Assembly: GCA_003023535.1 (NCBI GenBank)
Contig: PXSC01000054.1
Span: 1 to 9,185, forward strand
Direction: 5' to 3'
Length of the DNA: 9,185 nt
Origin: Halobacteriales archaeon QS_9_70_65
Lineage (GTDB): Archaea > Halobacteriota > Halobacteria > Halobacteriales > Haloarculaceae
Below, one piece after another: positions 2,097 to 2,454 of this stretch (positions are counted from its first letter, which is position 1; the number at the start of each line of letters is the position of its first letter). Made by a program: the position numbers and the translations under genes. The notes beneath the pieces are model-generated. The model had not been told where the DNA came from. It did no database searches and was given only the letters and a program-made list of their open reading frames with translations.

Positions 2097-2145
2097 CCCA
2101 CTTTTTACACGGGCCGGCCTGCGGCCGGCCCGGCAAAAACGTGGG
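2097..2145 (+). terminator. T-tract plus long hairpin directly after purNH
   Basis: Five T (2102-2106) begin 9 bp after the purNH stop, a plausible archaeal oligo-T termination signal. The T-tract is also one arm of an imperfect 20-bp hairpin: CCCAC plus TTTTT (2097-2106) pairs with AAAAA, a bulged C, and GTGGG (2135-2145). It encloses a perfect 10-bp stem (2110-2119 with 2123-2132, loop TGC). The hairpin is also the first module of the repeat described separately, so termination may be a secondary use. Confidence 0.5.
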
Positions 2146-2197
2146 GAAAATATGCGCGACTCGCTCCTGTCGCGGGCCTGGCGGCCCGCGGTAGTCG
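2097..2197. repeat. Modular hairpin repeat, copy 1
   Basis: In order: a T-tract; a perfect 10-bp stem with a 3-nt loop (2110-2132); a conserved core starting CGGCAAAAACGTGGGG (2131-2174); a perfect 8-bp stem CGCGGGCC/GGCCCGCG with loop TGGC (2171-2190); and a conserved tail CGCGGTAGTCG (2187-2197). The 44-bp core matches copy 2, 248 bp further on, at 39 of 44 positions by direct comparison, and the 11-bp tail is identical in both. The stem between core and tail has a different sequence and loop length in the two copies. It has no coding potential and no transposase. It resembles the short A-rich hairpin repeats scattered in haloarchaeal genomes, but I cannot name a family. Confidence 0.7.
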
Positions 2198-2198
2198 T

Positions 2199-2250
2199 GG
2201 TCGCGACGAGGACGATGTCGTTCACCGGCTGGCGGTCGTCTGAGCACTGA
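2199..2250 (+). repeat. Degenerate second copy of the purNH 3' end
   Basis: This segment matches the last 51 bases of purNH (2043-2093) at about 36 of 52 aligned positions with one inserted base. Both contain CGATG, CGTTCACCGG, GCG and GCACT, followed in the same frame by a stop codon. Translated, the purNH end is MAFTGQRAFKH-stop and the copy is MSFTGWRSSEH-stop. The two lie 157 bp apart, one on each side of hairpin-repeat copy 1. The copy has no gene in front of it and is presumably a decayed duplicate left by insertion or tandem duplication. See the finding on this repeat. Confidence 0.55.
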
Positions 2251-2288
2251 CGGCACGACGGCGGCGGGTCGAGCCGCCACCGCGGGCG

Positions 2289-2454
2289 TTTTATCGGCGG
2301 CGGCCGTCGGCCGCCGCCCGCGGTCATCAGATTCCGTTGGAATCTGATAGGCAATCAGACCGCTCCGCGGTCTGATGACGGCAAAAACGTGGGGGAAATA
2401 CGCGCGCCTCTCTCCAGTCGCGTGTCCTCGCTCGGCTCGGACACGCGGTAGTCG
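2289..2454. repeat. Modular hairpin repeat, copy 2, with three leading hairpins
   Basis: In order: a T-tract (TTTTA, 2289-2293) and three perfect hairpins that each have a 10-bp stem and a 3-nt loop, at 2296-2318 (GGCGGCGGCC, loop GTC), 2326-2348 (ATCAGATTCC, loop GTT) and 2354-2376 (ATCAGACCGC, loop TCC). Then come the core (2379-2422), a 9-bp stem CGCGTGTCC/GGACACGCG with an 11-nt loop (2419-2447) and the tail CGCGGTAGTCG (2444-2454). Copy 1 has only one leading hairpin, of the same 10+3 geometry but different sequence. GCGTTTT (2286-2292) can pair imperfectly with the A-rich core start, which would close the three hairpins into a multi-branched structure. Confidence 0.7.

Follow-up and report, generated by a model that had tools for sequence, protein, structure and literature searches.

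A dispersed multi-domain structured element, probably a road-block for transcription, at gene ends of Natronomonas and other Halobacteriales

Two sequences in the window (the whole 9185-nt stretch of haloarchaeal DNA that was analysed) are damaged, decaying members of a family of dispersed elements, made up of several domains and conserved in structure, that occurs in Natronomonas and other Halobacteriales. The T-tract end of the element is held flush to the stop codon of a gene or, less often, to the core promoter of a divergent gene. Judged from its sequence, the element is probably a road-block for transcription at the ends of housekeeping genes in many salt-loving archaea.

To describe the family, 141 distinct copies were collected from the fetched loci by core match; since they were chosen by this match, they are a non-random sample. 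The order of parts from the 5′ end is CCACTTTTT, a hairpin P1, GGCAAAAACKTGGGGAAAATATG and a covarying stem P2 with an inner hairpin, followed by a hairpin P3, a GAACCGC hairpin P4 and GCGGATGCT. The 5′ end was read from the collected copies as (C)CCACTTTTTRCAC. P2 has an internal loop TCC/AGTC besides its inner hairpin, and GCTAC stands between P2 and P3. A CCACTTTTT-type tract (up to two mismatches) lies within 160 nt ahead of the core in 133 of the 141 copies. The complete element has a median length of 200 nt (range 170-343) in the 102 copies with both ends; a looser 3′-end rule, which cut 13 copies at the wrong place, gave 112 copies with a median of 197 nt. Several subtypes of the P1 domain occur among the collected copies. 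The constant geometry of a 10-bp stem and a 3-nt loop, proposed in the original prediction, is refuted by the family, as perfect P1 stems range from 5 to 12 bp and only 33 of 141 hairpins have 10 bp; the loops measure 3, 4 and 5 nt in 108, 14 and 19 hairpins respectively. In other genera (L259-L288) a simpler form lacks the CTCC/AGTC domain and has a plain hairpin behind P1, in many cases GTGAAACC or GTGAACC; its occurrence there suggests that P1 may have been the ancestral unit.

The nearest genome compared shares 40% of sampled words with the window, in which the following features were located.

522..2093, + strand: gene bearing copy 1 at its 3′ end, with formyltransferase and AICARFT domains (PurN/PurH-type; Pfam PF00551, PF01808)
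2091-2093, + strand: stop codon TAG of the PurN/PurH-type gene
2097..2146, + strand: domain P1 of copy 1, with CCCACTTTTT, a 10-bp hairpin with TGC loop (2110-2132) and AAAAACGTGGGG
2147..2197, + strand: AAAATATG linker, P2 5′ arm and inner hairpin of copy 1 (8-bp stem 2171-2178/2183-2190)
2296..2318, + strand: first hairpin of copy 2, 10 bp, GTC loop
2324..2380, + strand: twin-hairpin cassette within copy 2, 10-bp/3-nt hairpins at 2326-2348 and 2354-2376, spacer AGGCA
2379..2498, + strand: core of copy 2, P2 with inner hairpin (9-bp stem 2419-2427/2439-2447) and P3

The repeated 44-bp core (2131-2174 and 2379-2422; 39/44 identical, 89%), the CGCGGTAGTCG tail common to both copies, the 8-bp and 9-bp stems between core and tail, and the four 10-bp stems with 3-nt loops TGC, GTC, GTT and TCC (2110-2132, 2296-2318, 2326-2348 and 2354-2376) were all found as originally described. 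The true element is longer than the unit recognised then and extends to GCGGATGCT. The predicted pairing of T-tract and A-tract is present in the fold of copy 1, where CCCACTTTTT (2097-2106) pairs with AAAAACGTGGG, whereas the fold of copy 2 leaves its tracts unpaired. Likewise, three hairpins do stand ahead of the copy 2 core, but two of them constitute the separate twin-hairpin cassette. Copy 1 starts 3 nt past the purH stop codon, with the architecture of the collected copies that have a T-tract. Relative to the same purH site of the genome G001 (L191 comparison), it is without its 3′ half: the P2 3′ arm, P3 and P4 are missing and the copy ends after GTAGTCG. In copy 2 the CCCACTTTTT strand is absent and host flank, GGGCGTTTTATCGGC, occupies its position; the 5′ P1 strand is thus considered missing, because GGGCGTTTTATCGGC matches a flank present without the element in G008. 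No P4 of copy 2 was recognisable by eye.

Copy 2 together with a VapB-antitoxin/PIN gene pair (2296-3183) is an insertion relative to G008 and is shared with G001. A further ~1.1 kb of the window with a GNAT gene, to ~4290, was unalignable to G001. The tRNA-Glu reported by ARAGORN at 2731-2829 (- strand) lies over the VapB/PIN coding region and is probably spurious.

The core is not confined to the window, and its frequency is far above chance. With up to three mismatches it occurs at 17, 49, 20 and 22 places in G001, G003, G017 and G019 respectively, and a reversed core used as control at none in these four genomes. A 118-nt query matched 21 of 60 relatives, and the exact core pattern was found at 40 loci in named genomes, all of Natronomonas or a Halobacteriales MAG. 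Across the order, the covariance model R1 matched 141 of 293 genomes and 46 of 87 genera of Halobacteriales at E <= 0.001; this search used strict filters, 16 candidates were scored per genome and the E-values are rough, and isolated weak matches in distant families could have arisen by chance. The P1 pattern matched 54 of the 293 genomes (control 0 in every genome listed). The inner-P2-hairpin pattern matched 50, with control matches occurring and some matches lying in coding sequence. Among 20 Natronomonas genomes, R1 copies numbered 52 in G003, 32 in G019, 29 in G017, 22 in G001 and 19 in G002; G005, G007, G009 and G018 gave no match and four more gave one each. Three of the four element-free genomes are 94-99% complete. 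The function cannot be essential, since four of the 20 genomes are without a match and four more have a single one. Like Rfam families, the element has a covarying conserved structure; the 11 Rfam matches in the window up to E 5 (best E 0.2) were all far from the gathering threshold, and a known Rfam family was thus not supported. A description of the element was not found in the literature searched, mostly papers outside subscription.

Genes were called by a home-made codon score for the counts of neighbouring genes, of flush right ends and of flush loci outside Natronomonas. In 115 of the 141 copies the T-tract begins 0-6 nt past a stop codon that ends a long same-strand open frame. The remaining 26 comprise 10 without such a stop, 8 without a recognised T-tract and 8 at a longer distance. 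In 15 of these 26 the left gene points away, and the element lies 39-46 nt from its start codon in 10 of the 15; in the other five the distance is 80, 117, 531, 559 and 1186 nt. TATA-like boxes were seen by eye between the element and the divergent start codon. At the right end of the element, only 1 of 39 convergent cases has the stop codon 0-6 nt away (1 of 42 with looser ends). The gene following the 115 flush copies is on the same strand in 58 and convergent in 53 (61 and 52 with a looser caller). Outside Natronomonas, 18 of 25 R1-model loci and 13 of 26 P1-pattern matches are flush with a stop codon, some loci being common to both sets; 6 of the 13 represent one gene tail in near relatives. 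Facing elements a few hundred nt apart were observed at G003 939559+/939864-, G017 3463365+/3463791- and G001 C28 38066+/38369-, each element of a pair probably belonging to one of two convergent genes. At L105, L223 and L237 a duplicated tRNA 3′ end stands directly before the element, ~100-180 nt beyond the tRNA gene, and resembles an attachment-site duplication.

The element is also retained at orthologous genes. Among the matches listed, Natronomonas orthologues keep the element with different hairpins, and some are without it. G001 and G017 share 7 upstream genes against 0.10 expected, and G003 and G017 share 4 against 0.24 (random choice among an assumed 2500 genes); G019 and G014 share none. 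At 12 of ~65 distinct distant loci (13/83 with repeats) the gene is orthologous to an element-bearing Natronomonas gene, KaiC-like, prephenate dehydratase and elongation factor 2 genes among them, and element-like sequence was seen by eye directly past the stop in 11 of these 12. A Pfam run on 20 upstream genes, chosen from 81 clusters, matched Cpn60, S19e, NDK, TFIIS zinc ribbon and glutamine synthetase as well as EF-G domains, COX3, ETF alpha and succinyl-CoA ligase; many of the 20 are housekeeping genes. The 3′ end of purH was read in 18 genomes: the element is present in G001 and G017, as a variant in G013 and as a remnant in G008, and was absent from 14 (G014 and G010 are fragmentary). 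Gains or losses of the element must be frequent, because purH is without it in these 14. Where a target-site duplication of the MITE kind was looked for, the empty purH sites were too diverged.

That pairing is kept while sequence changes had been proposed from the two window copies. For the P2 stem, 40 of the 141 copies did not fit the parser and do not enter the arm test; of the 101 parsed, 81 were non-redundant, and 47 of similar length made up alignment A2. In A2, doubly changed cells in P2 and its inner hairpin numbered 110, compared with 51.6 ± 5.7 after shuffling (0/500), and the covariation score was 0.345 against 0.153 ± 0.014 shuffled, with slid versions at <=0.143. Neither the count of doubly changed pairs (12 against 11.5) nor that of pair types (27 against 28.7) rose above the shuffles in the same alignment. 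Among the 101 copies, which have 26 distinct arm pairs, P2 arms paired better with their own partners than with swapped ones (3.78 against 2.62 ± 0.07 Watson-Crick pairs, up to 5), and the maximum of 1000 shuffles was 2.84.

Seven near-genome pairs of copies were aligned for domain replacement. Single domains are replaced en bloc, the remainder being nearly identical, in L088/L081, L065/L091, L092/L078 and L012/L093. L160 differs from L094 by the clean insertion of a 62-nt twin-hairpin cassette with no visible target duplication. The pair L073/L066 was more diverged than the other aligned pairs, and L071/L077 showed no block replacement. The proposal thus holds as covariation in P2 and the inner hairpin, but much of the swapping is replacement of hairpin domains en bloc; the modular, cassette-like, terminator-like make-up that had been suggested is supported. 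Because whole hairpin domains are replaced in this way, the covariation does not amount to many independent compensatory mutations. If the terminator/insulator reading given below is true, the element would be an example of structure retained although its stems are swapped in blocks, and of the caution due before covariation is taken as independent compensatory change. Of the 49 copies of G003, 25 had a core variant that none of the 58 copies of G001, G017 and G019 showed; it also occurs at genes common to other genomes (4/10). The genome-specific core variant and the single-domain replacements suggest that the copies are homogenised by ectopic gene conversion.

Folding was compared between the two strands. 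The strand opposite the flush gene was the more stable in 100 of 102 copies with RNA parameters and in 98 of 102 with DNA parameters (108 and 106 of 112 in the looser-end set). The quasi-palindrome TC-N-C-TNC-G-N-TC occurs 131:0 on the gene strand versus the other in the 102 elements, 145:1 in the looser-end 112 and 9:18 in the flanks. Loops of TNC versus GNA on the gene strand number 122:15 outside P1 and 49:26 within P1. GNA triloops and tandem GA are stable in DNA. The folding of a single strand of DNA could be an alternative source of the strand preference, a point against the terminator/insulator reading given below. In alignment A1 (64 sequences from two families) the columns C2, A4, A6, A16, A17, A18, T59 and C60 are invariant. 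Two A-tracts are present in 63 of the 64 rows, with a gap of 7-8 nt in 62; on the opposite strand these give two U-tracts that follow the folded domains. The right flank has an AT content of 0.48 beside the element, falling to 0.34 with distance; this fall being only gradual, a localised promoter-like AT box was not supported. A downstream T-tract on the sense strand is not the rule either, as only 18 of 102 elements have TTTT within the first 60 nt, against 7 and 11 further out.

We tentatively favour, at somewhat below an even chance, a dispersed transcription terminator/insulator that would stop polymerase arriving from outside the gene, its copies being homogenised by gene conversion. On the gene strand, the T5 tract would close the transcript of that gene no more than ~15 nt past its stop codon; the hairpins would not be needed for this, because the upstream T5 precedes them. 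On the opposite strand, an incoming polymerase would first transcribe the strongly folding P4-P3-P2 and then the two U-tracts (UUUU, 7-8 nt, UUUUU), and would stop before entering the gene in antisense or overrunning the promoter. Copies may be kept because they benefit the gene end, and ectopic gene conversion may keep them alike. A terminator on both strands of a gene end would explain why the element sits where it does, why its strands differ and its tracts are conserved, why the orientation of the next gene is immaterial, and why orthologues retain it. The lack of enrichment of convergent neighbours (53 against 58), the Natronomonas genomes with one match or none and the many purH genes without the element were counted against the insulator reading. 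More doubtful is the broader proposal of a candidate class of directional transcription insulators guarding haloarchaeal gene ends and promoters order-wide, with the folded strand opposite the guarded gene and hairpins diversified by whole-domain exchange.

The element carries the consecutive U4+ tracts that mark archaeal U-tract terminators. In the available portions of the cited reports, higher termination efficiency goes with more U4 tracts in the methanogen Methanococcus (PMC8716108), termination sites of Haloferax are marked by T stretches and first 3′ UTRs there have a median of 97 nt (PMC7237163), and in Halobacterium the 3′ ends of genes hold an excess of antisense start sites (PMC6523106). 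This literature fits the insulator reading without testing it. The aCPSF1-dependent U-tract terminators resemble the element in having T/U tracts at ends and several U4 tracts, but as described in these sources (PMC8716108, PMC7237163) they are short tracts, whereas those of the element lie within a ~200-nt multi-hairpin repeat of fixed domain order and strand bias. If the terminator/insulator reading is true, haloarchaea have a modular device that keeps antisense and read-through transcription away from promoters and the ends of genes. Haloarchaeal termination would then be testable element by element, with ready-made parts for haloarchaeal genetics.

It is less probable that the element is a non-autonomous mobile palindromic element (MITE-, PATE-, SMR- or REP-like), inserting or surviving best at gene ends and recognised by a recombinase through its structure; we consider this unlikely. 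The copy number of 0 to 52 among congeners, the patchy purH occupancy (3 of 18 genus genomes and a remnant in a fourth), the clean 62-nt insertion in L160 and the strand-asymmetric folding speak for it, and past mobility in some form is likely given that range of copy number. Against it, CCCACTTTTT and GCGGATGCT show by eye no terminal inverted repeat of the kind that bounds MITEs, different families carry the element at the same genes, and no common target is visible between stop-codon sites and the ~-40 start-codon sites. Carriage by viruses, plasmids or phages was not borne out, as the exact core pattern matched no viral contig and a single 151-nt piece used as query matched no plasmid or phage. 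Recognition by a single-strand (Y1/IS200) transposase, raised in the original prediction, is unsupported, since Y1 gene counts do not track copy number: Y1_Tnp genes number 0 in G001, 1 in G003, 1 in G019, 1 with a stop in G017 and 5 in G011, and 5, 3, 2 and 0 in the element-free G009, G018, G005 and G007.

Among known repeats, REP/BIME sequences are, like the element, high-copy, palindromic and mostly downstream of genes (PMC3733652). As set out in the available part of that source, GTAG- and CGTC-tagged palindromes measure 20-40 bp, carry a tetranucleotide tag and often go with RAYTs. The element differs in its median of 200 nt, its multiple domains, its unconserved stem sequence and the lack of such a tag across families; no link to Y1 was found, the element-rich genomes having at most one Y1 (RAYT-type) gene each in G001, G003, G017 and G019. 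GTAGCGC is present on the opposite strand in Natronomonas and absent in rows of another family (L185, L187).

A structured 3′ UTR on the sense strand, acting on the upstream mRNA through stability or REP-like ribosome stalling, appears improbable. The distance of 0-6 nt from stop codons does fall within the 15-nt range of stalling by REPs near the stop codon reported in E. coli (PMC12306157, as available), and the 20 upstream genes include many with housekeeping roles. The sense strand nevertheless folds less stably in 100 of 102 copies, and no ribosome terminates at the three copies past duplicated tRNA 3′ ends (L105, L223, L237) or at the ten before divergent promoters. Slightly more improbable still is an antisense non-coding RNA gene, or a protein site in folded single-stranded DNA, on the strand opposite the upstream gene: the greater stability of that strand (100/102) and its tandem GA and GNA triloops agree with it, but the right flank is AT-rich only beside the element with no localised box, and free domain exchange fits a sequence-specific RNA poorly.

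The twin-hairpin cassette gave 8 matches in 4 of 20 genus genomes, each in an element-like context. Cassettes lie in the element at L160 (relative to L094), L102, L109, L112, L118, L126 and L289-L296, and consist of two hairpins with a short spacer and unrelated stem sequences, resembling the small mobile repeats of Haloquadratum. The SMR and PATEs of Haloquadratum walsbyi are, like the element, short palindromic haloarchaeal repeats, and PATEs relate to IS605 ends; SMR-A enters palindromes of other elements without target duplication, as the cassettes may also do, but it is ~110 bp long, against ~57-62 nt and unrelated stem sequences for the cassettes (PMC3119063, as far as available). The P2 arms of L118 (10321, - strand) and L122 (2000, + strand) enclose their inner segment in reverse orientation, as recombination or template switching between inverted repeats would produce.
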